Source: Ptychodera flava
Taxonomy: Eukaryota > Hemichordata > Enteropneusta > Ptychoderidae
Assembly (NCBI RefSeq): GCF_041260155.1
Contig: NC_091939.1
Span: 41,615,870-41,679,869 of the forward strand
Length of the DNA: 64,000 nt
Direction of reading: 5' to 3'
In this document: piece after piece, positions 8,443 to 62,607 of the stretch
Position numbering within the stretch: the first letter of the stretch is position 1
Layout: each line of letters opens with the position of its first letter
Position numbers and translations under genes: made by a program
Notes under the pieces: generated by a model
Databases searched by the model: none
What the model was told of the DNA's origin: nothing
What the model saw: the letters and a program-made list of their open reading frames with translations, nothing else

Positions 8443-10090
8443 ATATTAATATTATTATTATTATTATTATAGACTTTATTTCGGACTCATTGTCCATATA
8501 ACAACAAAAGAAAATCTGGTGATAATATACACAGCTTGGTTAAGTTATACAAAAAGAAGCTTGTTCCATAACTTTATCATTTCGGAGTTTAAATATAATG
8601 AGTCATACACACATCGTACAATATCATTACTGCTTCTCAGAAGTCTTTGCTTTAGAACCATAAATTTGCCTTCTTAGCAAGGCATCAAAGTTATTGATTC
8701 TGTTAGATACAAACATAGAGCTTGCACTACTACGTTTATCATAACCCAATAAAAGACGAGCAGCATTATTGTAAGCAACTTTCAATTTCCTCATAATATT
8801 AACAGAATATTTCATCCAAATTGGACCGCCATACAATTGATAACAATATGTTTTGAAAAGAACACTCTTGACTTCAAAGGTACATCGAGAAAATTTTCTC
8901 ATAAGCATATTAGCTGATATATAAAAGCATCTCATCTGTCGCTCGATATCGTCATCATCACGAAAGTGATCGTTGAGAACAAAACCCAAATGTGTCTTCT
9001 TTGTGACAAATACTAATTTAACTCTATTGAGATACACAGAAGGAATGTGACGAATCATAGATGAATCGCATCTCACACACATACATTTGGTCTTTTTGTT
9101 ATTAAATAAAATATCATGAGTATCACCATAGTCACTACAAATATTGACCAACTTCTGAGTTCCCTTGACAGAAGGACTAATCAGACAAATATCATCAGCA
9201 TACATTAAATGATTGACGAAAAGTCCTCCAATGTTACAACCTGTTTTGGAATTAGACAGCATAAAGCTCAAATGATCAATATAGATATTAAAAAGCTTTG
9301 GTGACAAGATCCCACCTTGCTTTACACCATTGGAGACAGTAAAACCACTGGAGGTACATGCACCCCAGCGAATAAAAGTCTGTTGAGTTCGATACCATCT
9401 CAGGAGAAATCTGACAAAATACACTGGTACTTTGCGATCAATCAACTTTTTGAAGAGAACCCAGTGGTTGACTCTGTCAAATGCCTTGGAGGCGTCCATG
9501 AAAGTGACAATGACATTACTACCATGCTTTCTATAGTAATTGATTACTTCTTTAAGTACAAAGACACACATATCGGTCGAGTGACCAGATTTGAAACCAA
9601 ACTGGTAATGTGACGTTTCAAGATAACATTCAATATTTCTAAGTAAAATTAATTCCATAAGCTTAGAAGCAACTGTCGAAACTGCAATCGGACGATAGTT
9701 ACTTTTGTCATTGATATTGTTGTTTTTGTCCTTTATGATGGGAACTAAAACAGTATCGGATAGGCGACTAGGGCAAACATTATGCACAAACATCGCCGTA
9801 AAACACATACTGAGTAAAATGGAAACTTTACTGCTAGCATACATAAAATGCTCAGCTGAGAGATAGTCAGGGCCAACAGATTTACCAGCCTGTAGTTTCC
9901 CTATGGCATCACTAATGTCACTGGGGTAAACAATGAAATCATTTTCGAGAGTACACTTTTCAACAACATCTAACACAAACTTCTGGTCATGTGTCGTATT
10001 CACTGAGTTGTAAACGCCATAGTAATGGTTACGCCACATATCAGCAATATTAGCTTCGCCAGTACAGCCACCCACATTGTTTGGCCTGGA
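8443..10090 (-). mobile_element. LINE (CR1/L2-like), 5' part displaced by element A
   Basis: A minus-strand ORF enters from the element A junction at 10090 and runs to 8627. It covers a non-LTR reverse transcriptase: an N-terminal NIADMWRNHYYG block, SNYRPIAVSTVASKLME, FMDASKAFDRVNH, VSNGVKQGGILSPKLFNIYI, the catalytic MYADDICLIS, and a CR1/L2-type tail. The 3' UTR ends in a (TAA)n tract at about 8443-8470, typical of such LINEs. The RT portion appears free of stops. The first 45 or so apparent codons upstream of the junction belong to element A's terminal repeat and not to the LINE. It continues at 19579-19635. Confidence 0.85.
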
Positions 10091-10262
10091 GAGGTATGTA
10101 AGGGTGCCGGAAATCGACAAGTGCGGGCCAAAGTGAGGGCCAGCACAATCAAAGTGCGAGCGAATGTGAGGGCTTGAAGTGAGGGTTCTCACAATCGAAG
10201 TGCGAGCAAATGTGAGGGCTCTCACAATCTAAGTGCGAGCGAATGTGAGGGCTTGAAGTGAG
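10091..10262 (+). repeat. Element A left terminal inverted repeat with subrepeats
   Basis: It starts GAGGTATGTAAGGGTGCCGG and then holds about three units of a 45-bp motif (CACAATCGAAGTGCGAGC, AATGTGAGGGCTTGAAGTGA). The match to the right TIR is close. The second unit lacks part of the motif, suggesting copy-number slippage. Confidence 0.85.
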
Positions 10263-10861
10263 GGGCGCCTTGAACCGATCAAATTCGGGCTCAGACATAC
10301 GAAAATGAGAGTCAAGTCGTTTTCAGCGTTGAATAAAACTTACTATCTCCAGAACACAGTCGCGGCGCGGCACAGCTCTGTGAACAGTTGAACGGCTGAG
10401 CGCGGAACGAGTACACATGACCTGCGTACAGATCATGACCCATTACATCACTTCCGTCTTTTTCGTTAACCTTTTCGTGTTTGTTAGTCATTGCATTTCA
10501 AATATCACAGATATCCTTTTTATTATTAATACATGCAACTCAAGCGAGCGATAATTCTTCTGGTACCATTGTAAGCTTACGACTATTACTATGTTCAGAC
10601 AGGGAAAAATTGAAACGTTTCTGCAACACTATTTGTGATTTGTAAACACAGGGGATTAATAGATTGAGTCCGCTTGCGTCCACATACACAAAATTAAGCC
10701 ATTGTTTTGATGTTTAAGACGTCTTAATGCGCCCTCTCGAGTTCAAAAGGTGTGTATGGCCAAGCATTGTTTGTAACAAGATGGCTGAAATGGACGACGT
10801 CGTACTGGCTGTAAAGAATGTGAAAGAGGCTCCCCACCTAACTATCCAAAATGTTTTTGTG

Positions 10862-11104
10862 TCGAGTTTGTGTTTTATTCGTTTCTAAAATGTGTTCCTA
10901 CATTCTTATCCGATTGTTTGTGTTAATAAAAATGTTTGTTTCGCCTCGCCATAAGCTTTCCTCACACAAACAAAACATTACCGTCCACACTAATCCAAAC
11001 TTCCCTACAAATATCCGAGGCGAAACAAACATTTTTATTAACACAAACAATCGGATAAGAATGTAGGAACACATTTTTGAAACGAATCAAACACAAAATT
11101 AATG
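10862..11104. repeat. Near-perfect palindrome with 83-bp arms
   Basis: The left arm (about 10866-10948) and right arm (about 11016-11098) are reverse complements with very few mismatches, and a 67-bp spacer contains the AAGCTTTCC segment. The arms end in CGCCTCG and CGAGGCG. Such fidelity implies recent origin or gene conversion between arms. An 87-aa-class ORF through it is a by-product. Confidence 0.88.
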
Positions 11105-11389
11105 ACTCCATCGAATATTTTTGTTCCCAATTAATAAATCATAGACAATCTCAATTCTCGGTTTATGGCAATTTTTGTCGACTGATAAAAGTCTTTTCAT
11201 CTTCAACATTCCATTCTAATTTCACCTACGGTATATAATATCCTAACCTCCTGTGACTTTCCTTCTAAACGTTGATTTGCCTTGTGCACCAAAGAGATGC
11301 TGTATTTTATGCCAAACGATGAAAAAATATGTGAAGAAATAACCATGTATCAGTCAGTACGGCAGGCGAAACCCGGACGGCCATACCGA

Positions 11390-14224
11390 TTGGGGACAGA
11401 GCAGAGTAGATCGAAACGCAAACGGGGTGTTATTATAGGAAAGGCGGTGACTTATTTTAAAGCTGAATAAAATGCTGTCTCTGGTTGTGTAAGTCTGTTG
11501 ATCGAAATATATATTTTGTTCCCAGTTGATTAATCATGGGGGATGGCAGTCTCGATCTCCCCTTTATGGTTCGATATTTACTGACTCGTTCCCTCTCATT
11601 TTTGTCAATCAATGAAAGCATTTTCGTCTTCCATATTCAATATTACTTTGACCGATGTTACATCCTGACCTATACTGTCATTAGTTTTGACCAACGTACA
11701 AAGACATTGCCCATGCGTCCGGCTGATGAGATGTTTTGCAAAACGGTGAAGAAATGGGGCTCGGGAGACATCGATGTCAGTCTTTCCGGACTGTTTACAT
11801 GTAGCTAATAGGGGATATCAAAGGAGATGAATCAGTTAGTTGAATAAAACATAACTTTTCGGACTTATTTTATGTCAATTTTGTCAATGTCGGACTTTTG
11901 ATTCAGAGAAACCAGAATCACCTACAGAGATGTCTGTATTAAACACGGACGCACAATTGGGAATAGTTTGTTGTATGCTACTGTCGGTCTCAGTCGTGGT
12001 GTCTCTCCCATAAAATTTCGAAGCTATAGGTCCAGTCGTGTCGTACACTTGTCGTTTCGATTCACAGGTAGCGGTACACCGATGACCAGATATTGTACCG
12101 TTCTTAAAACTAGTCTAAGCAATTTTACGACACTGCACTATTTGCCATCGTGTCTCCCCGTGAACGTCCTTGAACCTATGGACGTGACCATTGTTTTACT
12201 GCGCCCATTAGAGTGTAAACCCCTGTTCGTTACCAGCAGAATACTTTTTAAAGTTCTGTACATCAGTGTACAATGTGTGTATAAGCCCTAAACCTAGTTA
12301 ATTCAATTATGGAAAGGTATTAAAGAATAAAGGGTCGTTACAGTTGCTAAAATTGCGAGAAAAACGGCACTTTTTACTCAAATAGAATAGTCCTATTCAC
12401 AAGCGCTATTGTTTTAAATCACGTCCATGGTGTGCTGTTGATTTTCATTCTTTCGTGCAATTTCATTCGCTTGAAGCAATTATCCTTTCATTTGACTGCT
12501 CTGTGGGACTCTTCTGAATATGTGTTTTGGATAAAAAGAACTCTACAGTGAAAGACATAAACTTCGACGGTGATAGGTATACAATATCGGTTCGATGTGT
12601 GAAGATATACAGATTACAAGTTATTTTAGAAGTTCTCAAAACCAGTAAAAATAATTCTGCGCGCCACTTATTGATAATTTCTTCTTGTGAACGTCCTTGA
12701 ATCCGTGACCGCGACCATTGTTTTCGAAGTGTTCGACGGTGGATGATCGGTAGATTAATGAAGATATATGTTACTGAACTATCGTGTGATTGTTTAATAG
12801 CATGGTTAGGTAATAGACGGTGTAGTCTGTAGAGGCGATACGGCGAAATTCCACGGCCCAAGGGAGCGTACATTGCATGGTTTCTTACAACGAACGAGCC
12901 GTCGGTTTCCATTGCTACTACGTGAAATCCGGCCTCACCGATGTCCCGGGCCGATGTCCCTGTCCTGATTCGGAGAACAACTTTCAAGCTGCGTGTTGAG
13001 GTTCAGATGTCCGATTTTTTCATATTCAAAAGGCTTATTGATTTACAGAGAACGCCCGTCTTGTTTTTAGCTTTAACTTAGCACATGATGGCAATTGAAA
13101 ATTCAAGACAAATAGCCAGTGGGAAAAAAATAGACGACTCGCTCTCACCAGCGTCGAGGTCGCAATGAAAAAAAATCGAAGTCTCTGAAATCGGTATCAT
13201 TGCTCCGCCATGTTTATTGTTTTGGTTGTACGGCCAGTTTAAAGTCACAGACTTTCTTCACGGTAAATTCATATAATTGCCATACCGCGAAGTTCCCTGT
13301 GCATTTCAATATGTCTATTTGGAAGCAAAAGCGCCACGGACATTCGATCGATGGTGATGAACTTTCTCCAGGCCGTGACATGTCACCAGTTACGAACTTT
13401 ACCGGTTTTCGATACGAAAGATGCAATATATTATCAGCGTTGTTCACGTTGTGTTTTGAGTTTGATATGGAATATAACAGGAAAACACTAACGATTAGAG
13501 TGACGATAGAGACCATGCCCGATACGGAAAAATTGACATCAACTACTTGCAATGAGCAGTGACCTGAAACTTCAGACTGATATATAAATGTCGACAATAT
13601 AAAACATTGAAATGCCGGAGAGAGAGAGGGAGAGAGAGGTTTACGCTGTCGCGAACTGATTATACTCTTTCGGATATGACTTCGGTGTAGACGATACACA
13701 GACATCGAAAATGTACACCTACTTTCCAGAAATTCGACTAATCTTATAATAAAGAGTGGAACAAATCCAAAAGTGTTGGTTGAAGTAAATCTTCAGATGT
13801 TGGTTTTCTAAAGTTAGATAATACAGAAATATGGTCGTCACAGTCTTCTTTTAAAAACTATTATCTTCAACACCACGTTTCTTATGATCGGTGATGTCAT
13901 TTTTTATTATTTTTACAAACTTTCAATGCATCAAACGCTATAAGACTATCTCATCTGCCTGTCAAGGAGTTACAATATATTTCCAAGGGCTGGCACACGA
14001 TGTCAACTTACGTGTCGTCCGTCGAGCGGCCGGTGGCAGTGTCACAGATTGTTCCGTCTGTAATCGCGGCCACTTTGATTTTGATGTGACACCAACGTGC
14101 GTTTGAGGTTTTTTTGTTACGAAATTTGTCGACCTCACAAAATTTCACAGTCCATGCTTTGAAGCAGTCTCAACATGGCATGGCAAACATGTCTTGCTTA
14201 AATTTCATCCTCGTCGTTCCAATT
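11390..14224 (+). repeat. Core segment shared with element B
   Basis: It matches 60050-63182 in the same order over nearly its whole length. Shared anchors include CGCAAACGGGGTGTTATTAT, GACATCGATGTCAGTCTTTC, TGTCTGTATTAAACACGGAC, GAGCCGTCGGTTTCCAT, ACCAGTTACGAACTTTACCG and AAATTTCATCCTCGTCGTTC. Small indels are spread across it, and ORFs in one copy (for example 12463-12987 minus) are not kept in the other, so it looks non-coding. A (GA)n tract at 13620 is longer in copy B. It does not match a known family by eye. Confidence 0.85.
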
Positions 14225-15642
14225 AAATTCGACCACTAAATTATTTCGGCAGTTTTAATTTCCTATTAATTCGACGTTTTTCAAATCGTAATGAATTTTT
14301 TCTGGTCGAATTTATAGGGTTTTTGGTAGCAAGCTTATCTCTTCGTCGGACCAGTATACCGCGAGATGTAGTACTGTGTTCGGCAGCCATGGCGAAAGTG
14401 AATATTGTATATTGGTTGTTGTTTGTTTTATGTTACAAATACCTGTCGCGTGAGGGCGTTTGAAACGCTTCTGAAGCGGCTCAGTCTGTCCACACAGCGA
14501 TTTGCGGATAGAGTTAATCCCTACAACGGCTCTGGTCGGCCGACTAAACCGTCTCAAATCTGAAACGCTTCAGAACCACTTCGGAGTGTCCACACATAAC
14601 TTTCTGCGTCAGTATTGGCCCAGAACCGTTTCAGAGACGTTTCAATGGCCTGTGTATGAACGGCATATATAGCGCGACTGATAAATGTGACTTCAGTCAA
14701 AACAGTTCACGACCTGGGCACGTGAACTCTGATACTGATCCGACATGACGTCGTACGCGGAGTTTTTGCCGGAGAATTTTCGAAGAAAGAGGAAACTTTT
14801 TTGAAGACATTTTAGAGTGGCTTGTTCACCAGATAAAGTAAGATCATGGGAAAATGTATTTTTGGAGACTTGTCTGGTTCTCTATGATTGATTTTTTGAG
14901 GATAAAAAAAATTCAATAGCTAAAACTGAGAAATCAGACAACAGCAAATGACAAATTCTTTTTTACGTTTGTACTGACAGTAGGCCTATGCTTTTTATTT
15001 TCTCTGTACACAAAGTTTGATAATCATTTCAAAAGATCAATTGCATCAGAATATCAGGGGTCATGAATGCTTGTAACCTTTACATTTTGTTAACAATGAT
15101 GGATATTTTACCTCAATAAAGAATGCCATTTTGGTCAACGAGCCCTTGAATATTGTTCACTGAATCAATCTCATGGTCAATTATATTGTCACAGAAATCA
15201 TAGCTAAGCTTATCTCTGTGTAGTCAGCGATTGACCAGTCATTAGATAGAAATTTGACTGTCTGCTTTGTTTCATACTATATAATCAGAAAGCTCTGCGA
15301 CCTTGCATCACATTCATACGTTGTTTGTCTGTAGCGGAAATGATTGTGCCGTCTCAGGCTCTGCAACTTTTAAGCCAACGACTAGATGATAAGAACAAGC
15401 AATCTATCGGCGAGTAACACATCGCGACCGAATCACTTGCTGTAAAACGAATATGCATCACCGTCCTATGCATGTATCGTGTGTCAGCCTTGAGATAAAC
15501 ATAAACTCTGTGACAGGCATGTAGGATGCCAAAGACATTTTGTGCATTTACGTTTACAACAACCTATACTTAGTCGATCGTAAGAAGGGTGGTGTTGAAA
15601 CATATTTCAACTGAACGCAATGGCTATTTCGCAGTAAAATAC

Positions 15643-15645
<3 letters not shown>
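14225..15645. other. Element A interior, no gene recognised
   Basis: A pair of related motifs (GAAACGCTTC, GAACCGTTTCAG) recurs at 14465-14650. Otherwise there is no known ORF or repeat. Confidence 0.45.

Positions 15646-15684
<39 letters not shown>
15646..15684 (+). repeat. (CT)n microsatellite
   Basis: About 19 uninterrupted CT units lie directly at the 5' edge of the LINE fragment that follows. Confidence 0.95.
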
Positions 15685-15686
<2 letters not shown>

Positions 15687-17135
15687 GTGTCAATATCTAG
15701 GAGTTAATTTAGGAGTTAAGCAAGGGTGTAACTTAAGTCCAACTTTGTTTAATATTTTTATAAATGATCTTCCCAGTACATATGGTTCCAGTCAGGACTG
15801 TCCTATCAACTTGGTAACTCCTTATCAATTGTCTAATGTATGCTGATGATCTTTTATTGATTTCAGAATCTGAAACAGGCTTACAAAGCTGCTTAGATAA
15901 ACTTCATAGTTTTTGTCGTGAATGGAAATTGTCTATTAATATAAAGAAGACGAAAGTTATTGTGTTAACAAAAGTAATCATCTTGTAAAAGGAGTTACAC
16001 TCACTTACAATGGAGTGACTCTTGACTTAGTGAAAGAGTACTGTTACCTTGGTTTTGTCATTACCCCAAATGGTAAATTCAAAGGTAATTTTTATAATCT
16101 TAAATTGAAGGCAATGAAAGCTCTTTTCAGCCTTCGTAAGGGCCTTCAGAATGGTTCACTTTCTGTAAAAGTTGCATTATCACTCTTTGATAGTTTAATT
16201 GTTCCTATTATGACATATGGCTGTGAAATATGGGGACATGAAATTAATGACAAATGTAACTTTCTCAATGATGTTAGTATATCTTTTTATAGATTTATCC
16301 TAGGAGTCTCTAAACATGCACCGTCTGATGGTGTTGTTGGAGAGCTGGGTAATATCCAATTCACTTTATGGTGATAAAGCACATGCTCAAATACTGGCAT
16401 AGATTAGTTTTATCAGATGACATCTTACTGAGATTTGCTTATACATCCAGGTTGAATTCAGATTGGTCTAATTATATACAAAGCATTTTGAACTCTTACA
16501 GTGGGAGTGATATATGGTCTTGTGTTTGCAATATCAATTCCACAGTTAATAATGTATATGATAGTTTATGTGAAACTTATGATCAAACATGGTTGAGAAA
16601 CATTCATAATGATACAAGGAAGTGTGGAATGCAGAGGAATAAGCTCCGAACTTACAGACTATTTAAGACAAATTTGAATTTGAAAGTTACTTGCTAGATA
16701 TAAGATCTTTTACCTATAGGAGGTGGCTGACAAAACTAAGAATTTCGGATCACAACCTACAAATAGAACTGGGTAGAAGGTCAATTCCAAAGTTCCTGCA
16801 AATGAAAGATTCTGCAAGCATTGTAAGTCTTTAGTTGAGGATGAATTTCACTTTGTAAGAATGTCCAAAATACAGAGCTTATCGAGATAGTCTATTTTCA
16901 TCCACTAGTTTGTATAATCCTGGCTTTCTTGATTTGAATGATAGAGAAAAGTTCATGTATATCTTTACTCACGAAAAACAAACTACCTCTTGCCAAATTT
17001 ATTTCTTGTACGTTAGTTCCTCCCCCAGCAGCAGCTTCATCCAGTGTTTGCTGAGTTTTTGTAATTTTTGCCTTACCACACTCCTTGAGTGTGTTGTTTG
17101 AGCAATAAAGTATTATTATTATTATTATTATTAAT
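15685..17135 (+). mobile_element. 5'-truncated LINE fragment (CR1/L2-like)
   Basis: The plus-strand frames give the last half of a non-LTR reverse transcriptase: LGVKQGCNLSPTLFNIFIND, then YADDLLLISES at about 15840 in another frame, then YCYLGFVITPNGKFKGN and PIMTYGCEIWGHEI. The C-terminal knuckle ERFCKHCKSLVEDEFHF follows near 16800. The 3' end is AATAAAG followed by (TTA)n at 17103-17134. Frameshifts near 15840, 15985, 16370 and 16690 and later stops show it is dead. It is the same family as 24965-25895. It sits inside element A. Confidence 0.85.
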
Positions 17136-17582
17136 ATCGGGTGTGGTCTCTCAGCGTACCGTCATTCTAATTTGTGTTAGATGGAATTGATCATTGCAGT
17201 TTAATCTTGAAATTGGCCAAACGTCATAACTAGACACTTGTCATGGTCTGGAGCAAGTTATCAGCTTGTATAAAAGTCGGAAGTTTTTGCTTCCGAAGGG
17301 GCACACGCGTAAAATACTGAACGTGTAACTAAAACTCACCGTTGGAAATTTTCAGACTTTCAAAATTAAGCCGGTTGTATTGTCAACAATAAATAAGACA
17401 GAGCAATACTGCCGACCTCAAAGACTCCGCGTATTTTTTCAACCTTACCAATGCAGCAATGGCGAGAGATGAAGTATAATAATATTACATCCGGTATTTT
17501 GGCTTGAATATGCCATCGACCCGATGAACACGTTAAATTCGGACACCTGAACCCTGACGCTACCCTGACGCAAAACCTGTAA

Positions 17583-17818
17583 GGTGGTGAAATCTCCGAT
17601 ATATATCGGATATTTACTTGCGATTTGACAGAATCTATTATCGTCTAGTATCGAAGCTAGAGTCAGTCCTTGGAAGTCGGGTTTGACCAGAACTGTAAGG
17701 TAGTGAAATCTTAGATATGTATCGGATATTTACTTGCGATTTGACAGAATCTAGTATTGTCTAGTATCGAAGCTAGAGTCAGTCCTTTGAAGTCGGGTTT
17801 GGCCAGAACTGTGGCGAA
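17583..17818 (+). repeat. Tandem duplication, unit about 118 bp
   Basis: Two head-to-tail copies each contain ATCGGATATTTACTTGCGAT, GACAGAATCTA and GTATCGAAGCTAGAGTCAGT. They are highly alike, so the duplication is recent. The TGAAATCTCCGATAT motif recurs in reverse orientation in the repeat block at 18410-18785. Confidence 0.85.
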
Positions 17819-17939
17819 GGGAAATTCGTCTTGGTGTGACTGATGGACAGACAAGCAGACACGATGTGTTCTGTAATTCTGCTACAACACACATTTTATT
17901 CCGTGGTTCAACTTCTAAGCTTATATATACGCCAAAGCA

Positions 17940-18218
17940 TAGACCCTCGAGAAAAACGGGACAGGCAACTGCTGGGGTTTTTTTTGTGCGATCTATCTTG
18001 GAATATATTAAGTTTATTTGTCAAGCGGTCCCCGACAACAATACTTCGTACTTAACACTGAATCTCATTAACGATCAAACTGACGTTCTGAATATGTACA
18101 CTTTGCTCTTGCATGGCACGTTCCAAATAATGACACAGAGAATTTTGAGGGTTTTTTGATACCAGTCATGGTGAATGTTCTGGTAACGATGAAGATCACA
18201 GTTTTTCTCGAGGGTCTA
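17940..18218. mobile_element. TA-flanked MITE, 279 bp
   Basis: The left end TAGACCCTCGAGAAAAAC and the right end GTTTTTCTCGAGGGTCTA are exact inverted repeats including the TA. TA duplication plus a short TIR points to a Tc1/mariner-type non-autonomous element. Readings of about 100 aa inside have no known match. Confidence 0.8.
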
Positions 18219-18409
18219 CGACCAAAGTTAAATGTCAAAGTCGACATAAAATAAAAAACAACGGAAAGGTCAGATTTGCATGTTATGGCTTCATTTAACT
18301 AACAAATAAACTAATAGATAAACTGACGCTGTGAAATCGTCATTAGTATGTGTACAGAACCCTGGATAATAAACAGGAAATATATTATCTGTTTTGCATT
18401 ATTTCTGTC

Positions 18410-18785
18410 GGATTTCCATTCCCGACAATATTAGAGTCCCCAAATCGCCGAAAAATATAGGGTAAATATCGGAGATTTCACAGATCCGGCGTGCCGAGGT
18501 ACAGGGCAAGTCATTCAAGTATCGTCTAATATCGATATTAGAATCCCCAAATCGCCGATAAATATTGGGTAAATATCGTCGATTTAACAGACCGGGCGTG
18601 CCATGGCTCCAAGCAATTTATTCTGGTATAGTGTAGTATCGATATTACAGTCCCCAAAAACGCCGGTGAACATCGGCAGTTACACAGACGCGGCTTCCCA
18701 TGGGACAACCGCAGTTCATTCGATTCTAGTATCGATTCTATAGTCCCATAATTGTCGATATGTCAAACTTCGATACTAGATTGTA
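18410..18785 (-). repeat. Tandem repeat block, unit about 113 bp
   Basis: Three to four diverged units each contain GTCCCCAAATCGCCG or a variant, GGTAAATATCG, ACAGA-CGGCGTGCC-like and TAGTATCGATATTA segments. Part of the unit is the reverse complement of the 118-bp unit at 17583, so the two blocks form a loose inverted pair inside element A. 18786-19391 has no recognised feature. Confidence 0.75.
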
Positions 18786-19391
18786 AATACCCGTTATTTC
18801 AAAATTGTGCAAAGTCGCGCCTTCATGAGTGTCGAGAGACACTTGAGATTTTGAACGACGTGATCAGTCGTGTGTCATTATTGTCATGGCATTAATTTCA
18901 ATAACGATAATCCCCCGATGGGCTTATCTCAAGTTTAAAAGCTTTACAAGAAAGTGTTTTTCAGTCCTGACAGTGTATAACCTAATCATGGCGATGACTG
19001 ATGTTTTAATATTTCTGCCTGTCGCACATATAGCGTTTGATTTCACTTTGACAAGCACTTTGAATGTGCGATCCATGCCCGATCAGTCAGTCGCCGATTT
19101 TTAAAATCAGCCAGACATTATATTCTTAAAGATACTCAATGATGTAAAGATTACAAAATGCCTCATTCATATTTTTACGGTGTTTGACAGTTTTTTCCGT
19201 CAGGGACGTCATGTACTTTATTAGCCTTTCGCTCATATCGTGAAGCTTCGATCGATGCTGTAGCTCCATGCATGCTCATACACAGGGCTGCGCCGTTTAC
19301 ACTTAAGTGGAGATCGTATCGCGCTTTTAGCAGTGACTTTGATCACAAGTCTTCATTCGATCAAGGTGAATTTAGTACTGATTTTCGCAAG

Positions 19392-19570
19392 TCTCAACCC
19401 TCAAATACGCTCTCACTTCGATTGTGAGAGCCCTCACTTCAAGCCCTCACATTTGCTCGCACTTGATTGTGAGAGCCCTCACTTCAAGCCCTCACATTCG
19501 CTCGCACTTTGATTGTGCTAGCCCTCACTTTGGCCCCGCACTTGTTGATTTCCGGCACCCTTACATACCT
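19392..19570 (-). repeat. Element A right terminal inverted repeat
   Basis: Read on the minus strand it begins AGGTATGTAAGGGTGCCGGA and repeats the GTGAGGGCTTGAAGTGAGGG / GTGCGAGC units of the left TIR. It differs from the left copy by few bases. The open reading frame that starts here on the plus strand is simply this repeat read through. Confidence 0.85.
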
Positions 19571-19578
19571 GGCCTGGA

Positions 19579-19635
19579 CGAACACTTTTTACTATTAATG
19601 GAGTGCCAAAATTTTTTTATAATATTCTTATCACT
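19579..19635 (-). mobile_element. Remainder of the LINE split by element A
   Basis: On the minus strand this reads IIKKFWHSINSKKCSSRPN and joins in frame to the LINE ORF ending at 10090 if element A and one target repeat are removed. FW-x-x-I preceding the NIADMW block is usual in CR1/L2-type LINE ORFs. Homology stops about 19635, so the LINE is 5'-truncated there. Confidence 0.75.
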
Positions 19636-20935
19636 TCAGAGAATGCACTGTAGGAATGAGACTGTGTTGCAGGTAGCAAACAGTCCTGAGAAGGTCACTA
19701 GTGAAACACCTTGTGTCATCACAGACAGGACCAATATTAGGGAAGCTGACCCTATGTGTGAAAACATCAATGCTAATGACAACACCACAGTTGTTGACAA
19801 GACTGACTTCACTTTGGAACAAAACAGTGACCGTAAAAACTATACCATTCTTGAGGAGACTGACCTCACTTATGAACAAAACAGTCATCATAAAAACTTA
19901 AACCTTGAGGAGACTGACCTCACTTATGAACAAAACAGTCATCATAAAAACTTAAACCTTGAGGAGACTGACCTCACTTATGAACAAAACAGTCACCAAA
20001 CTGAAACTACTTTATGTAATTTCACAAGTAACACTCATACTGAACTCCATCTCAATAAATCTCATATAAAACACACCATTAATGAACCTCATTATGCACT
20101 CAGCATAAGTGCACCTGCACAAAATGATATTGCCAATGAATTACGTGATGAACAATATCCTATTGAACATCACACTAGCAAACTTAATAATAGACCATCT
20201 GATGAAGCTGGCAATATACTACTTGATGATTATATAAATGAAAGTGTAAAGTCTTTTGAAATTAACTTGAGCAGTTCTAAAATTCAAAATGTGGACACCC
20301 TTCAATATAAAGTGCAATCATTTATAATGGCATCTTTTCATCAGGTGATGAAACTTTCCTGACAATGTACATGGTAAACAGTGCACATGTAATTCGTTAG
20401 TAGCTTCATGTCATTTACCTTCATCGAAAGAAATCTGCACTCCTGATCTTGATGATGTTTTGTATGAAGGGAATAACCTATACATTAGTACAACTAAATC
20501 TCTCTCAGACAAGGGACAGCTAGTGTCAATTTCTTGTGTTTTAGAGGAACTTCCATCTTTCATCAGTACTTCACGAGGCATGTATGTGATTAACATGTTG
20601 TCAAGTGTTCATGGTATCATAGACTCAAACAAAGTGTACTCAAAACAGCATTTACAAGAGCTTTACAGACTGGCTTTCAACAGAGCTGTAAATGTTTATT
20701 CATGTTTAAAGAAATTTGTGTCTGTATATTCAACAAAGATGATAAGTATTTCTATTTTGATCCACATGCAAGAACTCCCGATGGAAATCCTTCTTCTGAT
20801 GGCAAATGTGTCTTGCTTACATTTAATTCTATTCATTATTTGTCAACTACTTGCTAGATCTTTCTGTTATGATCTTTGACTCAGTTTGAACTCAAACCAC
20901 TTAATGTCACAATAGTACATGATCAACACAAACGC
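19636..20935 (+). pseudogene. Gene with C76-like cysteine-protease-type region, broken
   Basis: A plausible acceptor (TCACTTCAG) at about 19636 leads into a long Asn/Glu/Thr-rich, low-complexity stretch. This is followed by a region reading NLYISTTKSLSDKG, FISTSRGMYVINMLSSVHG and, in another frame, YFYFDPHARTPDGNPSSDGK with LLTFNSIHYL. The FD-HAR--DG pattern resembles the end of the papain-like C76/OTU-like domains found in some Helitron-linked and other transposon proteins (from memory; not provable here). The gene is interrupted by the DIRS element and continues at 28390. It looks broken in a small number of places. Confidence 0.5.
19850..20000 (+). repeat. 54-bp coding minisatellite, three units
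   Basis: Three head-to-tail 54-bp units encode an 18-residue repeat, LEETDLTYEQNSHHKNLN. The last two are almost identical at base level, pointing to recent slippage within coding sequence. Confidence 0.9.
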
Positions 20936-21105: not shown

Positions 21106-21270
21106 AAAAATTTGCCTAGACTTACCTTGAAGTGCAAATTATAAGTCTTTGAATGGAGCGTAGTGTATCTACGGTAATGCCTCTCCATCTTTCCCCGATA
21201 GTTGGCGCCCTTCCCAAGTACTGAATAATAAGTATTCAATGTCAGCCATCTTGTTATCCAGTCATTCCAC
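21106..21270 (+). repeat. DIRS inverted terminal repeat (3' side)
   Basis: The sequence from GTGTATCTACGGTAATGCCT through TTATCCAGTCATTCCAC is the reverse complement of 28263-28389. The outermost 40 bases (TTTGCCTAGACTTACC) lie only on this side and are copied in the internal complementary region. Confidence 0.9.
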
Positions 21271-21383
21271 TTGAACGGGCCGAATTCAGATGAATTTGTA
21301 TATAAGCTATATAGCAATTTTTAAAGCACAAAGGCAAATAACTTCCCAATTTACATGGAGTTGGGATGGTGGGTGGGAGGAGA

Positions 21384-21500
21384 GTAGATACACTACGCTC
21401 CATTCAAAGACTTATAATTTGCACTTCAAGGTAAGTCTAGGCAAATTTTTAAGTCTTTATCATTCCGCTCTGTGTATCTACGGTAATGCCGATTACCAAG
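21384..21500 (+). repeat. DIRS internal complementary region
   Basis: The first part (GTAGATACACTACGCTCCAT and on) is the reverse complement of the 3' terminal repeat edge. The second part (TTTATCATTCCGCTCTGTGT and on) equals the outer edge of the 5' terminal repeat. The joint lies at about 21451. This is the junction template used by DIRS elements to make circular DNA. Confidence 0.85.
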
Positions 21501-21529
21501 CTGGATGGAATGTAAATTGACTGACCTGT

Positions 21530-22550
21530 TCACTGCTTGGAGGCAGCTAACAGTATCATACGGCCCACTTCTGATGAGTCAGTATATCGACAGTAGAATC
21601 TGGTGAAAGTTGTGTTGGTTGACCAATCTCCCAACTGTAGAACTTGTGTTAATGTTGCTCCCTGATGTAATGCAGCTGAGCTAGCAGCCCCTCTTGCACT
21701 GTGTGCCTTGTAGTGACTTGTGTCAATTCCTGCAGACTTCATTACTGACTTTACCCATCTAGCAATTGTTTGTGATGTAACTTCTCTGTATGGTTTTCTA
21801 ATGAAATAAATAATTTCGATGGTCGTTTTCCACCCTGTTGTACTGTGAGATCTCTGTATCTCCTGGTTCTAATGATGTACTGCTTAACATAATGTCTCAC
21901 ATTGAGAGACTTCTCTCCAAATTTTGGACATCTTACAGTCTTGTGAGGTTTAAAACTGACGACGTCTTTGTCAGTTCTGGTATCACAAACAAACAAAATC
22001 ATTAGTTAAATTACAAAATTCAATGTCTAACTTGCTAATTGTCTGACCTCTATCTGAGGATGTCAGTGCAATCAGCATCACAGTTTTCAGTGTCAGTTGC
22101 TTGAGACTCAATCTTGAGCTTGGGTGTAGAGACTTCAGGTAATCTAGTACCTTAGTAAATCCCAGGTTACTGGATAACGTGGTTTGGGTGGACGAATGTG
22201 GTAGAACCCCTTGAATAACTTGGTTATTAATGGATGAGTTCCTATGAGATATCCATCTATCTGTAGTGTGTGCTGATGAAATAGCAGCTCGGTAACCATT
22301 AAGTGTGCTGTACGACAATTCTTCCTTTTCAAACAGTTCTGTTAAGAAGTCTATTATCACTGTGATAGGACAAGAAATTGGATCTGCTTTCTGTTTATTA
22401 CACCAGCAAGCATATTTTCTCCACTTGATGTCATATTGCTTAGATGTCCCTCTGCGGACAGCTTGGAGTAGTATTTCTGTTGCTGCTTTTGAAACTCCCA
22501 GGTTTCTGTAGTGTTTCCTGAGAGCAGCCAGGCGGCAAGAGGCATCAGAT
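21530..22550 (-). pseudogene. DIRS tyrosine recombinase region (fossil)
   Basis: The minus-strand frames show a core-binding part (SYSTLNGYRAAISSAH) and the catalytic end HSARGAASSAALHQGA, LQLGDWSTNTTFTRFYCR, carrying the H-x-x-R box and the terminal Tyr of tyrosine recombinases. It takes the place of an integrase. The region is broken. Confidence 0.85.
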
Positions 22551-24601
22551 TTATTCTTCAGGTGGCTTGCCTGTGTGTGGTTCTATCAGTAGATTCTTGT
22601 GTCGTGGTAATAGCAGCGGTTTCTGACATGACATTTGCAGCAACAATGGGTACCATGGGCTCTGAGGCCATACTGGTGTTATGACTATTGCTCTGGCTTG
22701 ATCTATGCGTAGTTTTTGCAGGCATCTGGATATTAGAGGTGGTGGTGGAAACATGTAGATGCTTTTGCCTGTCCATCTCAGTGTGAAGGCGTTCACTGCA
22801 AAGGCCTGTGGGCTCCTTTTCCATGATACAAACTGTGGAAGTTGTTTTGTTATACGACTTGCAAACAAGTCTATTTCTGGTTGGTAAAGTGGTCGCAGAT
22901 TCTCTGGAAAATCTTTGTGTCCAACTGGTAGTCGTGGCAATCTAGAAATGCCCTGGACTGCTTGTCTGCTAGGATATTGACTTCTCCTGGTAGATGTTCT
23001 ACCGTTAGATTGATGCTCCTCTGTTCGCAGAACTGCCAAATTTGTAGAGCTACTTTGCATAGGCTCTGAGATCTGGAACCACCCTGATGTTTCAGGTAAG
23101 CCACTGCAGTTGTATTGTCCATCTGTAACTTCACTTCCATTTTCGACTTGTCTTGAAGAAAAGACTGAATTGCAAGTTTTGCTGCTAGTATCTCGAGGAC
23201 ATTTATGTGGTGAGACTTTTCTTGTTGTGTCCATCTGCCCTGAACTGTCTTGTTTGCACAGACAGCTCCCCATCCTACCAGGGATGCATCTGACTGTATT
23301 ACCATGTCTGGGGACACAGTCTGAATAGGTCTGCCGTTGAAGTTGGCTGCTTTGTGAATCCACCAACTCAAGTCTTCCTCTGATGCCTGGTTCAGTTGGA
23401 TGTGATAATCCCAGGAGTGATGTGCAAGGTTGTGGGTTAGCTGCTGTTGAAGTCCCCGGTAGTGGGATGCTGCTATTGTCATTGCTGCCCTTGCGTCTTC
23501 TATCAGGCCTAGTATGTGTGCTACTTGCCTGAGAGATACATACTGCTTTGTTTTGATTGACAATGCCGTGGCTGATATTCTTTGTAACTTTTGTGGTGGT
23601 ACCATTACACTCATTTCTGTTGTGTTGTAGAGTCTTCCCAAGTGCACTAGTTGTTTGGTTGGTAACAGATGTGATTTTTGTTCGTTGGGAATAAATCCCA
23701 GTTGTCGCAGCAGTGTCATTAGAGTGGTGGTGTTCTTGTGGCATAGATCTATCTTTGCTGCTTTGTTGAATATATCGTCTATGTAACTGGAGCACATTAT
23801 CCCCTGCTTGCGAGCATACGCCATTGGTATTTTCAGTACCTTGGTGAATACACGTGGAGCCGACGTCAGCCCAAATGGTAGGCATGTGTACTGGTACCGC
23901 TTGTCTTGCCACTGAAAACAGAGGTATTTTCTGTGATCTGGGTGTATTGGTATCATCAGGTAGGCATCTGTCAAATCGATGGATGTCATGTAATCGTCCT
24001 TGTCTAGCATTTGTTGTATGAATGGGTGTCCCTCCATTCTGAACTTCACCTTTTTTATAAACAGGTTCAGTTGTCTGAGGTCTATGATAACTCTGTTTCC
24101 CCCTGTTCGTTTGGGTAATACAAATATTCTTGACAGGAACTGGTCTGGATGTGGCTGTACCTGGATGATGGCTTGTTTCTTGAGTAATGAGTTGATTTCT
24201 GTTTGAATGATGTTGGAGTCTTCCTCTGACTTTGGTAATGAGATTGGTTGCTGGGATTGGTATGGTGTATTGATTAACTGAAGTCTGTAACCCAATATGA
24301 CTTTTAGGATCCACGAATTGTCTGTGATCCTTTTCCATTCCTCCACAAAATATTGCAGTCTGCCTGCATGTGGAAGATTTTGTTGAGTGTCACTGTTTGG
24401 TTTTGTCACTGTGGCTGGAGTTACCTTTACTACAGCTCTTGCCTGATCTCTGATTATATTTCTGGTACTTGTATTTTGAGTTGTACCCACTTCTGCGGTC
24501 TTCATAGTTGGAAGACCCCTTGTTATAGTTACTGTACCTCTTCTTACTGTCATATCCCTGCTGTGACCTTTCCCTTGTGCTCGTGACACTGCGAAAGGCA
24601 T
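22551..24601 (-). pseudogene. DIRS reverse transcriptase and RNase H (fossil)
   Basis: The 24601-22871 reading carries the RT core (VIIDLRQLNLFIKKVKFRME, MTSIDLTDAYLMIPIHP, CLPFGLTSAPRVF, catalytic SYIDDIF) and then RNase H (VIQSDASLVGWGAV, LQMDNTTAVAYL, PGEVNILAD). The following DLFASRITKQLPQFVSW segment, usual in DIRS between RNase H and recombinase, is in another frame. A second long open frame overlaps the RT; only its last part matches family sequence. Confidence 0.9.
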
Positions 24602-24691
24602 TGACTGACTTCTTGGACTCGTTTATAGCTTTGAACAGATTACCGCCAAAGAAGCCTTGAACTGTGGGTTTGGACTCTTGCGGATATCCTT

Positions 24692-24899
24692 CTACTCTTG
24701 TTTAAACAAGGGTTTCATTCTGGCCTGGCGGAGCTCTGCCATCATATGGCTTGCTGTTGTTAGTAGATGTGTTGCATCTGATAAACCAGACTTTATCTGT
24801 TTCTTCAGCTCTGGTAACTTATCAGACTGGAAGGCTGAAGAACACACCAATTCCTGTGTTAGCGCTGGGTTTCGAAAGCTGTTAGCCACTGTGGCGAAT
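24692..24899 (-). pseudogene. DIRS gag-like region, distal piece (fossil)
   Basis: The minus-strand reading VANSFRNPALTQELVCSSAF and the helical DATHLLTTASHMMAELRQAR segment precede the RT. It continues the gag-like region across the insertion at 24900-27330. Confidence 0.6.
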
Positions 24900-24964
24900 A
24901 GTTTCAAATTTTATTAGCCACAGACAAATTTTATTAGCCACACATTTTTTATGAAAACAAAGCT

Positions 24965-25895
24965 TTCTATAATGCTATAATGTCCAATGGATGTGAAATT
25001 GGGGAAACGAAATCAATGATAAGAAGAATTTTATGAATGATATAAGTATTCCTTTTACAGGTATTTACTTGGTGTTTCTAAACAAGCTCCACGAGCTGGT
25101 ATTGTTGGTGAATTGGGTAGATACCCCATTCAGTTCACTGTTATACTACATATGATAAAATATTGGCATAGATTGGTTTTATCAGATGATATTCTACTAC
25201 GTGCTGCATATACAACTGCTAAGCACCACTCCCAGTGGTTTGAGTATATTCAGTATATTCTGGATGATTATAGTGGAAGATCTGTCTGGTCAAACATCTG
25301 TAACATTAATTTCACTGTTAAAACAGTTCACAGAGAACTGAAAGAAAGATATCGTGTCTCATGGATTAATGATTTACATAATGATGTAAGGACTCAGAGT
25401 GTTGACAAAAATAACTAAGAACATACAGAAAATTTAAAACTTATTTACTTTTGAGGAATACTTGATGGATATTACAAATATTAACTGCAGGAAATTGATT
25501 ACCAAGTTTCGTATTTCTGATCATAATTTACAAATTGAGATTGGCAGAAGGTCAGTCCCAAGAATCCCGTTAAATGAGAGATTTTGCACTTTTTGTAAGT
25601 CTTCTGTAGAAGATGAGTTTCATTGTATTATTAAGTGTGACAAATATGTTCATAATAGAAATACTCTTTTCACTAGTATGAAATCACATTTTGAGAACTT
25701 TGAATATTTAAGTGACAGAGAGAAATTCCTGTACGTCATGAATTTTGAAGACAAGAAGCCTCTTTTAAGGTATATTTCTTGCACTACAGATTCATCCCCA
25801 GCAGCAGTCTTACCTGAACATGTGTGTAATGTTTGATTTTGATTTGCTCTACCGCACTTCCCGAAGTGTGTTGTTATGCAATAAAGTATTATTAT
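24965..25895 (+). mobile_element. 5'-truncated LINE fragment, same family as 15685-17135
   Basis: The plus-strand reading gives ISIPFYRYLLGVSKQAP, HMIKYWHRLVLSDDILLRAA and SWINDLHNDVRTQ, closely matching the element A LINE, then ERFCTFCKSSVEDEFHCIIK, a C-x2-C zinc-knuckle end. AATAAAGTATTATTATTAT closes the 3' end. It has frameshifts and a stop near 25417. Confidence 0.85.
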
Positions 25896-25974
25896 TATAT
25901 TATTATAATAAACTATCAACACATCAACCTTGTATCCAGTTGTCTTCATTTTAACACTGAAAATTGCTTGATTC

Positions 25975-26940
25975 TGGACCCCGATGCAAATCGACAGCAG
26001 CACGCAACATTGAGACCACGATTAAAATGAACTGCAACACGGAGGGTTGGGACCGCGATGCAAATCAACAGCATGACAGCAACACTGAACGTTTGGACTG
26101 CGATTAAAATAGAAGTTTGGTTACACGTTATTGCGTTACATCGAGTACACGTAGCGTCTTTGTCACGTCATACAAGACGTAACGTCTCGTAAATGTGGCA
26201 CAGACGTTCGGAACGTCATCAAACGACACTTCTACATGTAGTCTTAATTACGTGTAGTAATTTTTAGATATTCTTGGTGATTTGCGGGAATTTAGACAGG
26301 AAATCTCGTTAAGTACTAGTATGAGTATCATTGTAAATTAGCAAACATCTTTGATATCAGAAAATTCCGTAGAGTTCACCTGAACAAGACGTACGTGCTA
26401 TGATTTCCTGACATAAATGAAATGTTGTCTAATTCAACTTTCTACCTGAAGCTGTCACAAAGATTTCCGTAAACCACATAAATAACTGTATTAGGCCTAC
26501 AGAAAATCGGTAAATTTAATGCGAGGATACAACGAGCTTGAATAGTCCTCACGTAGAGAAATTAATTGTTTCTTAAAACTTAGACGAATTTCGTATGTTT
26601 CTGAAAAAATAATACGGCAAAATCAACCAAAAAAATCACAACTGATCATGGATACGCGTACGCCACTGTGTGCCTTCAGACGTACACGTAATTAGATTGT
26701 AACCTCTCTAATGAACAACAACACGGAACGTCGTGACCGCGATGCAAATCGACAACAACACGGAATGCGTCGCTGGGATGGCGATTTTTATGAACATCAA
26801 TACGGGACCATGAGGACCGCGATGCAAATCGACCACCATTAAAATAAGACCTCGATTAAAATGCGCAACACGGAACGTCTAGACCACGATGCAAATAAAT
26901 TTCAACACCGAACGTTGTGACCACGATTAAAATGCGTATG
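25975..26940 (+). repeat. Octamer-bearing repeat clusters
   Basis: Two clusters (about 25975-26115 and 26700-26940) repeat a loose 60-70-bp unit: GACC-CGATGCAAATCGAC followed by CAACAC-GAACGT and ACGATTAAAATG. Perfect ATGCAAAT octamers lie at 25984, 26058, 26742, 26822 and 26889. The 580 bp between the clusters has no recognised feature. Confidence 0.7.
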
Positions 26941-27339
26941 TCTGCTGTAGCAAAAGTTTCAATTCTCGCGAGTGTTCGCTTTGCTTGCTGTACACTAGAC
27001 AAAATGACGTCAAATTTATCGCAAGACTAGGGCTCGATTGCGTCTGCCTGCATTTTCAATTCTCGCGATAGTCATTATGTGCATGCTGTACACTATACAA
27101 ATTGACGTCAAATCTCTCGCGAGACTTGGCTCGATTGCAATTGCGTACGTCGGAGAGATCAATACGGAAGTAGGTATAGTTTTTTTTTTTTCGCGAATCA
27201 CCGAAAGAGAAGCGCAGATCAACAAAGACTTAAAACCCCACGTTTTTGCTTATTTTGCGGAATATTTTCAACAAAAATCACTTTCGCCAATGTGGCGAAT
27301 TAGGATCGATTTCCATTCGCATTTGCGAACGTGGCGAAT

Positions 27340-28209
27340 GGGCAGCGCGAACACAGAATTCCAGTACCTTGATAACTGGTCTTAATGCTGAATGCATTAC
27401 CTGGTGAGTCTTGTAGTATGGTCTGTCATAGTTCTTGAAGTATGGAGCATTTGATCGAATCAAACTTCTGAGGGCTCCTGGCATTTGCTGAACCTCAAAT
27501 GGTTGTTTTCTATCTTCTGGGACTAGGTAGTTTTGTTGTAATTCTACTAGTTGAGTAGGTGACAATGTCTTATCGATACGTTTCATCAACCAATCAACTG
27601 AAGACTGTGATACTGGCCATGTAACTGGCCGCTAATATGGTCTGGTACGTCATCAAATATGGCGTCTAATTCACCTTCTAATGCAGGCTTCGATACTGAC
27701 GGTGACATACCTGAGGACTCAGGAAAATCATCCTGAAAGTTGTCCTCCGAATCTTCAAAATAGTCAAGTTCACTTTGAGACTCGATAACCTCCTGACGGG
27801 AAGACTTAGGTCTTGGCGGAGATGTCGGCGTCGACGATTTTCTCTTACGTGACCCTTGACCTCGAACTTGACTATGAGTATCTTCACTCGCCTTGCGACG
27901 CAAAAAAGTTTGCCATTGTCGCTTGGTTAGCCTGTGACTGAGCCACAAGTTGTGACATTTGTCCCAGTAGCTGCGTGAGCAACTCTGGTCCAGCGCTGGT
28001 TTAAGGAATAGCCGGGGTCGGCTCACTTGCATGCACGACTGTGGTCGCCATGCTGTCTTGACCTTCCTTCGGTAGTTCTGTAATGTCAGGTTCAGAAGGT
28101 TCAGTCGTAGCAAAATGGTACTCTCGGTCTCTGCCTGTGCCTCCGTGCTAATGGCACTACTGGAGGACTTATTTCTTCGGTTCTTCTTCGACTGCTTGGA
28201 GTCACTCAT
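27340..28209 (-). pseudogene. DIRS gag-like region, proximal piece (fossil)
   Basis: The minus-strand ORF starting at 28209 gives MSDSKQSKKNRRNKSSSS, Ser/Lys-rich and then acidic (SELDYFEDSEDNFQDDFPES), followed by a frame with DKTLSPTQLVELQQNYL. Position, basic-then-acidic composition and context support the gag-like first ORF of a DIRS element; no fold can be named. Confidence 0.7.
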
Positions 28210-28262
28210 GATACGAGAAGGAGCGCCAGCGAAAGCAAGTTCACTGTACGGCGCGAGAAAGT

Positions 28263-28389
28263 GGAATGACTGGATAACAAGATGGCTGACATTGAATACT
28301 TATTATTCAGTACTTGGGAAGGGCGCCAACTATCGGGGAAAGATGGAGAGGCATTACCGTAGATACACAGAGCGGAATGATAAAGACTT
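28263..28389 (-). repeat. DIRS inverted terminal repeat (5' side)
   Basis: This is the reverse complement of 21135-21270, ending outward in CGGAATGATAAAGACTT. Its outer edge is reproduced in the internal complementary region. Confidence 0.9.
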
Positions 28390-34200: not shown

Positions 34201-35316
34201 TAGTCCCCACTTGTAAAAGGAGTATTAGTCTTGATGGGGCAGGGAAATGTGGTCATTAAAAAGTATCGCTGGAGTGTATAAGTTCACATCTATGGGCACA
34301 TACGTTTATGTCATTTTTCCCAATTTATAACAGAGGCATGGCTAAGTTATGGTTCTAAATCGGGAAAAAAGATCAGACCTCTAGCTGTGTTGGCCAGCCA
34401 AGAAATACATATGTGCATAATAAATGAGGTACGAGATGTGAAATCTGAAGGTCTAATATCCTATCAAAATTGAAGCTTATAGAACTTGTGGTTACTGAGT
34501 TATGCATATATATGTATAATCAAGGTCTAAGGTCATCAAGGTCACATGACATTTTGTCAAAAAAATTGTATTGCAAAGTTATCCCTATATACCAAAAATC
34601 AGACCTCTAGCTCGATTGGCTTGCTCAAAATTAGATATGCGCATAATGAATGAGGTACAATATGTGGCGTCATAAGCTGTCCCATCATACCATACATGAA
34701 GGGTGTAGCACTTGTGGTTACTGAGCTATGGACAAATATATATTTTGAGGTCAAAGGTCATCGAGGTCACATGACATTTTGTCAAAAAAATTGTATTGCT
34801 AAGTTATCCCTATATACCAAAAATCAGACCTCTAGCTCTATTGGCTCGCTCAAAATTAGATATGTGCATAATTAATGAGGTACAATATTTGGCGTCATAA
34901 AGTGTCCCATCATACCATACATGAAGGGTGTGGTTACTGAGTTATGGACAAATATGTATATTTGAGGTCAAAGGTCACCGAGGTCACGTGACATTTTGTC
35001 AAAAAAATTGTATTGCTAAGTTATCCCTATATACCAAAAATCAGACCTCTAGCTCGATTGGCTTGCTCAAAATTAGATATGTGCATAATTAATGAGGTAC
35101 AATATGTGGCGTCATAAGCTGTCCCATCATACCATATATGAAGGGTGTAGCACTTGTGGTTACTGAGTTATGGACAAATATATATATTTGAGGTCAAAGG
35201 TCACCAAGGTCACGTGACATTTTGTCAAAATATCTGAGATATCTGCGTGAACGGATGGACTCACGGACGGACATGACCCAATCTATAAGCCCCCTGGACT
35301 TCATCCATGGGGACTA
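34201..35316. mobile_element. 1.12-kb TA-flanked repeat element with four internal tandem units
   Basis: The ends TAGTCCCCAC and TGGGGACTA are inverted. Inside are four diverged 220-230-bp units (TAAGTTATCCCTATATACCA, CAGACCTCTAGCTCGATTGG, GAGGTCAAAGGTCA). The right end is the ACATGACC...TATAAG...GGGGACTA module also seen at 35640 and 53055. It has no ORF and lies within an intron of the DUF7869-like gene. Confidence 0.75.
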
Positions 35317-40790: not shown

Positions 40791-40819
40791 AAATCTGGAC
40801 ACGCAACTGCGCGGCGAAG

Positions 40820-41146
40820 TAAGTTAAGGCATGGGTACAGGGTTAAAATGACATATTTTGACCAATAACATATTTCTTGAAAAAATAAAACTCAGATGAA
40901 AGCCAAAATTTGGTATAAACTTTGAGTGCTGCAATACTTAATTTTGGTGTTGAAAAAATTTGCACATGACCAATCATAAAATCACACAACTGCGCAAGTA
41001 AGTTATGGCATGGGTACAGGATAAAATGGCTTCTTTTGACCAATATCATTTCTTGAAAAAATAAAACTCAGATGAAAGCCAAAATTTGGTACAAACTTTA
41101 AGTGCTGCAATACTTAATTTTGGTGTTGAAAAAATTTGCATATGAC
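40820..41146 (+). repeat. Tandem duplication, unit about 170 bp, interrupted by a hAT
   Basis: Two units share GCATGGGTACAGG, AACTCAGATGAAAGCCAAAA and TTTTGGTGTTGAAAAAATTT. The second unit is cut at CATATGAC by the hAT at 41147. A related sequence lies in reverse orientation at 46790-46985. Confidence 0.85.
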
Positions 41147-46789: not shown

Positions 46790-46985
46790 TCAGTTTTTGC
46801 AGCAAAATGGCAGCAATCTAGCCATGTGACATGATCATATGCAAATTTTTTCGACACCAAATTTAAGTTTTACAGAAATTTAAATCTGTACGAAGTTTGG
46901 CTTTCATGTGAGTTTTTTGTTTTTAAGTAATATGGTATTGATCAAAATAAGCCAATTTAGCTGTGTACCCATGCCTTGACCTACT
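46790..46985 (-). repeat. Inverted copy of the 170-bp unit
   Basis: Read on the minus strand it has GGCATGGGTACA, ACATGAAAGCCAAA and TTTGGTGTCGAAAAAATTTG, matching the units at 40820-41146 more loosely. With the hAT removed, the two would lie about 0.4 kb apart as an inverted pair. Confidence 0.7.

Positions 46986-62573: not shown

Positions 62574-62607
<34 letters not shown>

Follow-up and report, generated by a model that had tools for sequence, protein, structure and literature searches.

We analysed 64,000 nucleotides of the hemichordate Ptychodera flava (contig NC_091939.1 of RefSeq assembly GCF_041260155.1, positions 41,615,870 to 41,679,869 of the forward strand), a stretch that we call the window and number from its first letter. 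It contains element A, which is almost certainly a non-autonomous inverted-repeat transposon, whatever its superfamily, inserted in a long interspersed nuclear element (LINE), and some 40 kb away a second element with terminal inverted repeats (TIRs), element B. The middles of the two elements are nearly equal while their ends are different. We tentatively assign A to the non-autonomous cut-and-paste transposons of Galileo/P-like type.

The body of element A occupies 10092-19570, a length of ∼9.5 kb, and reads AGGTATG...CATACCT. Its left TIR (10092-10264, plus strand) carries 33/46-bp subrepeats and its right TIR lies at 19394-19570 on the minus strand. When 10092-10256 is paired with 19570-19394, the arms of 165 and 177 bp align over 179 columns with 87% identity, indels included. 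A 13-bp indel falls inside the subrepeat region, and the outermost 130 columns hold 3 substitutions and 2 gaps. Tandem subrepeats were detected with Tandem Repeats Finder among other methods, at periods of 33, 46 and 79 in the left arm and 45–46 in the right arm. On the plus strand of the window the octamer GGCCTGGA occurs only on the two sides of A, at 10083-10090 and 19571-19578 (10084-10090 and 19572-19578 in a 7-bp reading), and its reverse complement occurs at three other places. Among 200,000 random position pairs, 25 gave a perfect 8-mer match when one base of slop was allowed. The features that define a TIR DNA transposon, namely inverted terminal repeats and a short flanking direct duplication, are thus both present. 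An earlier sequence-only reading of this DNA had described TIRs of about 175 bp with internal subrepeats that precisely bound a large non-autonomous transposon inside a LINE, and the ends, the duplication and the LINE homology given below all support that description.

The interrupted LINE is read on the minus strand. Its reverse-transcriptase frame (8630-10082; RVT_1 at 112 bits for 8630-10072) stops at the left border of A and resumes past the right border in an upstream piece (19579-19635, recognized by joined-frame homology) that is short and limited by a stop codon at 19636-19638. The restored open frame had earlier been presented as independent proof of insertion. The frame is indeed open in the joined flanks, but this openness is weak proof because in the unexcised sequence, too, the left frame continues without a stop into the TIR (8627-10228). 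We therefore give more weight to homology, which is better proof of insertion than frame openness. With the LINE frame joined across A as query, 1,796 of 4,257 candidates scored E ≤ 1e-10 and the best 120 were compared. In 79 of these 120 the alignment starts at query residue 8 or earlier, that is in the right flank, and continues across the joint; of these 79, 33 are gap-free at query residues 15–25 and 46 are gapped there. Across the 79 spanning homologues, query residues 1–19 give 393 identities in 1,106 compared cells. The empty site is in this way represented by LINE homologues and not by an empty allele. An assembly artefact at 10090/19571, a danger named in the earlier reading, or a chance inverted repeat is practically out of the question as an explanation of A. 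We found no point in its favor, and it is contradicted by the LINE alignment across the joint, by the differences between the outer arms and by the absence of any N in the window; the last two argue against an assembly palindrome.

Element A had been taken for a single unnamed element, a view that does not survive comparison of A with the window. Element B (59438-63529) has arms of 161 bp that are 97% complementary, differing at 5 of 161 positions, and that carry their own 37-bp subrepeats (left TIR 59438-59630, plus strand; right TIR 63347-63529, minus strand); it is flanked by a 7-bp duplication, GTCCAGA, at 59430-59436 and 63531-63537. B is one relative of A at another site within the window; the TIRs of A match only themselves and B there, apart from one 13-bp match at E 0.6. 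The two elements have in common a plus-strand core, located at 11392-14223 in A and 60052-63181 in B, that is 94.8% identical over 2,751 paired columns when 42 gaps covering 476 columns are excluded. The differences comprise 74 transitions and 69 transversions. A coding core was considered and rejected: the substitutions lack a three-base pattern, and 8 of the 42 gaps are multiples of three. The core of A contains no Pfam domain.

The ends present a different picture. In the left arms 35 of the 51 terminal bases of A and B are equal (69%), compared with a plus-strand window mean of 12.3 (standard deviation 3.1) and 28 of 51 at the best unrelated plus-strand site; on both strands, sites with at least 32 matches are TIR ends of A and B only. 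The right arms reach 55% ungapped identity over the outer 51 bp, because A has one additional base. Further in, past base 51, the left arms of the two elements are 37% and the right arms 35–37% identical without gaps. Divergence between A and B thus does not match between core and ends, and a near-identical core next to arms that are dissimilar past 51 bp makes ends and core look to have different histories. As the simplest cause we infer that members of the family have shuffled interiors and ends through recombination or conversion. This proposal has a precedent in Galileo of Drosophila, in which some described copies combine the middle of one subfamily with TIRs of another (PMC3573991; this and the other papers cited are used for the sections available to us). 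A second possibility, independent of the superfamily and weighed apart from it, is that the core reached A and B independently, as a mobile or captured segment. The right edge of the core is sharp (14223/63181, by eye), and its left edge in B, at 60052, falls within a hairpin whose 20-bp arms, 60004-60023 and 60038-60057, are perfect. Because neither TIRs nor a flanking duplication could be seen by eye around the core and the left-side similarity fades gradually, we consider separate capture unlikely, though a serious competitor to shuffling.

Regarding the superfamily, we compared the flanks of both elements with the body fixed as AGGTAT...ATACCT, so that A reads GGCCTGGAG, body, GGCCTGGAC and B reads AGTCCAGAG, body, GGTCCAGAC. 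Among lengths of 6–11 bp, 7 bp (GCCTGGA in A, GTCCAGA in B) is the longest duplication that is perfect in both elements. At 8 bp the two copies agree at 8/8 positions in A and 7/8 in B, and at 9 bp at 8/9 and 7/9. The 8-bp direct repeat of the sequence-only reading therefore holds for A, with its length now less certain. A base change in the duplication of B is quite possible, given that the arms of B already differ at 5 of 161 positions, so that the length may be 7 or 8 bp. Either length agrees with the 7–8-bp duplications of the P superfamily and Galileo, as 7 bp is perfect in both elements and 8 bp in A. The targets are also alike. That of A, GCCTGGAC, agrees at 7 of 8 bases and in the same register with the reverse complement of that of B, GTCCAGAC, a score that 259 of 200,000 random pairs attain in a single register. 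The P-element target consensus GTCCGGAC, taken from PMC10299278, fits A at 6/8 and B at 7/8 in one register, a combined score that 1 of 20,000 random pairs attains with 14 registers allowed; other versions of the P target were fitted as well by 1 (10-mer), 11 (14-mer) and 3 (1983 P octamer) of 20,000 random pairs. These figures, from two insertions, overstate the case, because the consensus was chosen after the flanks had been seen.

The ends contain arrays of a GGG-type motif. Facing inward, TNNGGG stands 31, 43 and 76 bases from the end in the left arm of A and in both arms of B, and at 31, 44 and 77 in the right arm of A; the sequence around position 76 is otherwise unalike between A and B. 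The complete sets are 8, 31, 43, 76, 89, 122, 155 and 168 (A left), 8, 31, 44, 77, 90, 122, 135 and 168 (A right), 31, 43, 76, 102, 112 and 149 (B left) and 31, 43, 76, 112 and 149 (B right). Compared with dinucleotide shuffles, a contrast that tandem copying inflates, the 8 inward motifs per A arm exceed means of 0.88 and 1.11 (reached in 0 of 500 shuffles for each arm) and the 6 and 5 of the B arms exceed means of 1.76 and 1.35 (reached in 3 and 5 of 500). The stricter published THAP site, TXXGGGX(A/T) (PMC3464256), is enriched in A, with 4 and 6 occurrences (0 of 500 shuffles each). By their sequence, the motifs in the ends of A and B may resemble THAP-domain sites. In Galileo ∼40 terminal bp are conserved between species and THAP sites are repeated inside long TIRs (PMC3688188); duplications there are 7 or 8 bp and a 9,021-bp copy lacks a transposase. 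Galileo, a member of the P superfamily in Drosophila, resembles A and B in its long repetitive TIRs, conserved terminal bases, duplication length, large transposase-less copies and subfamilies with exchanged middles (PMC3573991, PMC3688188, PMC2775673, PMC4168063). It differs in its GTANTAC target; A and B have a hemichordate host, and no transposase was found for them. The Drosophila P element has a GTCCGGAC-like target and transposase binding sites just inside its ends, and both it and zebrafish Pdre2 make 8-bp duplications, near the 7–8 bp of A and B; unlike A and B they have short TIRs of 31 and 13 bp, and the termini of Pdre2 differ (PMC7776569, PMC10983969, PMC10299278).

Element A would be mobilized in trans, by cut-and-paste, through a transposase encoded elsewhere. 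Such a transposase, most likely of the P superfamily, would recognize the ∼50 conserved terminal bp, perhaps helped by the arrays of GGG-type motifs as proposed for Drosophila Galileo. It would then excise A and join it to a palindromic, GTCCGGAC-like target at points 7–8 bp apart; in the present case A entered a LINE copy and duplicated 7–8 bp of it. Going further, A and B could represent a deuterostome P-superfamily lineage whose long repetitive ends resemble those of Galileo. The ends would evolve there as exchangeable arrays of THAP-type sites, and a single large non-coding core would pass from one element to another with different ends, but we hold this fuller picture to be doubtful.

Several observations weigh against a Galileo/P-like assignment, in addition to the tandem copying and the late choice of consensus noted above. 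The assignment is built on short motifs and on two insertions compared after the fact, without a transposase. Outward-facing TNNGGG is absent from the arms of A but occurs twice in each arm of B, and the strict THAP site is not enriched in B, where the single occurrence per arm is reached by 299 and 240 of 500 shuffles. None of the P-superfamily ends compared matches the terminal bases GAGGTAT/CAGGTAT; Pdre2 starts with CATACCT. The P palindrome lies one base off the perfect 8-bp duplication of A, and to take it as an 8-bp duplication would require A and B to carry an identical mismatch in their left copies. The Galileo target GTANTAC fits the A and B targets at chance level (12,603 of 20,000 random pairs are as good), and the hAT target consensus, nTCTAGAn, fits them above chance, less well than that of P. 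We also considered the CATACCT at the right end of A as a Pdre2 terminus; it has the opposite orientation and was taken as chance.

Three other superfamilies could account for A as a non-autonomous element, and a small share of probability goes to something else again. An origin among Mutator-like elements of foldback or Phantom type seems improbable to us, even though long repetitive TIRs with 8–9-bp duplications are typical of them, most foldback elements are said to belong there (PMC4079207) and the flanks of A allow a 9-bp reading with one mismatch. At 9 bp B has two mismatches, whereas 7 bp is perfect in both elements; set against Mutator duplications of 8–10 bp, usually 9 bp, A scores 8/8 or 8/9 and B 7/8 or 7/9. 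In two animal families, Tm1, with duplications of 8–10 bp and mostly 9 bp, and Muta1, with 8/9 bp, no target preference is reported (PMC3169594, PMC5225508), yet A and B lie in like targets. Tm1/Phantom and Muta1 differ from A in both duplication length and preference, and resemble it in composite long TIRs (Tm1) and in having non-autonomous copies (PMC3169594, PMC5225508). Tetris, a foldback element of Drosophila virilis, likewise has tandem-repeat TIRs and a non-coding middle, and no autonomous copy of it was found, but it has 8–10-bp duplications, on the basis of which its authors placed it in Mutator (PMC4079207). The leaning of the sequence-only reading towards foldback/TU or Mutator elements has consequently lost support, through the 7–8-bp length and through targets alike at 7 of 8 bases where Tm1 and Muta1 show no preference. 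The TU elements, known from sea urchin, have long TIRs and 8–9-bp duplications according to the sequence-only reading.

Membership of the hAT superfamily, with 8-bp duplications and subterminal repeats, is in our judgment quite improbable. GCCTGGAC and GTCCAGAC fit nTCTAGAn at 4/6 and 5/6 informative bases, a fit that 118 of 20,000 random pairs equal, and a decayed hAT gene lies in the window at 41724-45216. Long TIRs are unusual in hAT, however, the P palindrome fits both targets better, and the TIRs of A are not the ends of this hAT gene, given that they match only themselves and B. A Merlin element strikes us as very unlikely. Merlin has 8–9-bp duplications, TIRs of 24–462 bp and 5'-GG ends, and hundreds of matches are reported in Ptychodera flava itself (PMC8101967), a point that lowered our confidence in the Galileo/P-like assignment to its present tentative level. 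In A and B the corresponding GGTAT sits 1–2 bases inside both ends and does not abut the duplication, the best-fitting registers give ends of GAGG/CAGG or GAGG/AGG, and Pfam scans of the two elements revealed no Merlin domain.

A six-frame Pfam scan of A (stops masked, E up to 1) detected no transposase, as the sequence-only reading had reported for this 9.48 kb. Its matches were RVT_1 in two frames, one scoring 36.9 bits (over the cut-off) and the other 17.3 bits (under it), both from a nested LINE, and a sub-threshold AzlC match taken as chance; the sole match in B, DUF5009, was also sub-threshold and taken as chance. P-type (THAP/RNase-H), MULE, hAT and Merlin (IS1595-type) transposases were all absent from the scans of A and B. 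We do not claim membership of the P superfamily for A and B because no P-type transposase was found, although a non-autonomous copy need not carry one. Outside A and B, Pfam was run on 15 selected open frames rather than six frames, and a P-type transposase may still lie elsewhere in the window. A TIR-encoded peptide gave no candidate with enough common words in a set of 5.8 billion proteins, and exact TIR patterns gave 0 matches in viral contigs for each of three patterns. In the literature covered, which leaves aside most subscription journals and the repeat databases, no such element is described in the titles and opening abstract lines of the 10 papers listed out of 58 matching ones on hemichordates, nor in the two papers listed for the P superfamily in bivalves or amphioxus, and the term 'P element' is absent from the main text, as available to us, of the Ptychodera flava genome paper (PMC11175523).

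Besides the core, the interior of A contains a palindrome (10867-11097) found by repeat search, with 82-nt arms that are 98% complementary. A 5'-truncated LINE with a TTA tail is nested on the plus strand (15698-17132), possibly with a 6-bp duplication, AATATC, at 15692-15697 and 17133-17138 (edges by eye). Two tandem arrays at 17577-18676 (116 bp × 2 and 107 bp × 2.2) are partly inverted copies of each other. Weak inverted matches join 13168-13221 to 17438-17385 (E 5e-5) and 13866-13890 to 15599-15575 (E 0.008) within A, and 62130-62187 of B to 17441-17384 of A (E 1.6e-7). An old inverted duplication within A was considered and dropped, as a control on reversed, uncomplemented sequence matched at E 4e-6.

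The remainder of the window is also rich in repeats. Palindromes at 145-354 and 47431-47564, like the one at 10867-11097 in A, have arms of 60–82 nt and are possibly small foldback elements of other families. A DIRS-like tyrosine-recombinase retroelement on the minus strand (21163-28368) includes an RVT_1 frame (22874-24622, 61.5 bits), a Phage_integrase piece (21533-21868) at 26.4 bits, just below the 27.1 cut-off, inverted repeats of 120 nt with 97% identity (21163-21282/28249-28368) and a second pair at 21099-21172/21384-21457. Its RVT_1 frame matches a protein named for Ptychodera flava, three long pieces of which agree with the window at 302/320, 111/119 and 66/66 residues; judged by eye, the mismatches cluster where predicted exons join. 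This match points to the acorn worm as the probable host. The hAT-type transposase gene at 41724-45216 is broken and lies on the minus strand; it matches Dimer_Tnp_hAT at 27.6 bits, with DUF659 and a zinc finger below cut-off, and inverted repeats of ∼155 bp lie nearby at 40817-41148 (two copies) and 46832-46987. An open frame at 20355-20876 matches Herpes_teg_N (PF04843) at 29.2 bits (cut-off 25) and adjoins a frame in which a 54-bp unit is repeated in tandem (19800-19995). Another open frame, 37422-37805, matches DUF7869 strongly (108.9 bits). Tandem repeats include a 226-bp unit in about four copies (34368-35230) and a 32-bp array, AATGAGATGAAGGCCTTGTATTTTCACTATCC, at 63599-63933, which starts ∼70 bp past the right end of B. 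Rfam and tRNA scans of the whole window gave no match.

Taken together, a near-equal middle with different ends in two elements 40 kb apart indicates that, in long-TIR transposons, the history of the terminal recognition arrays can be separate from that of the interior. The common motif spacing of 31, 43 and 76 bases offers, from sequence, a concrete candidate site for transposase binding. That long TIRs promote exchange and give rise to new subfamilies has been proposed for Galileo in flies (PMC3573991), and another instance from an animal lineage far removed from flies would point to a general route for such exchange.

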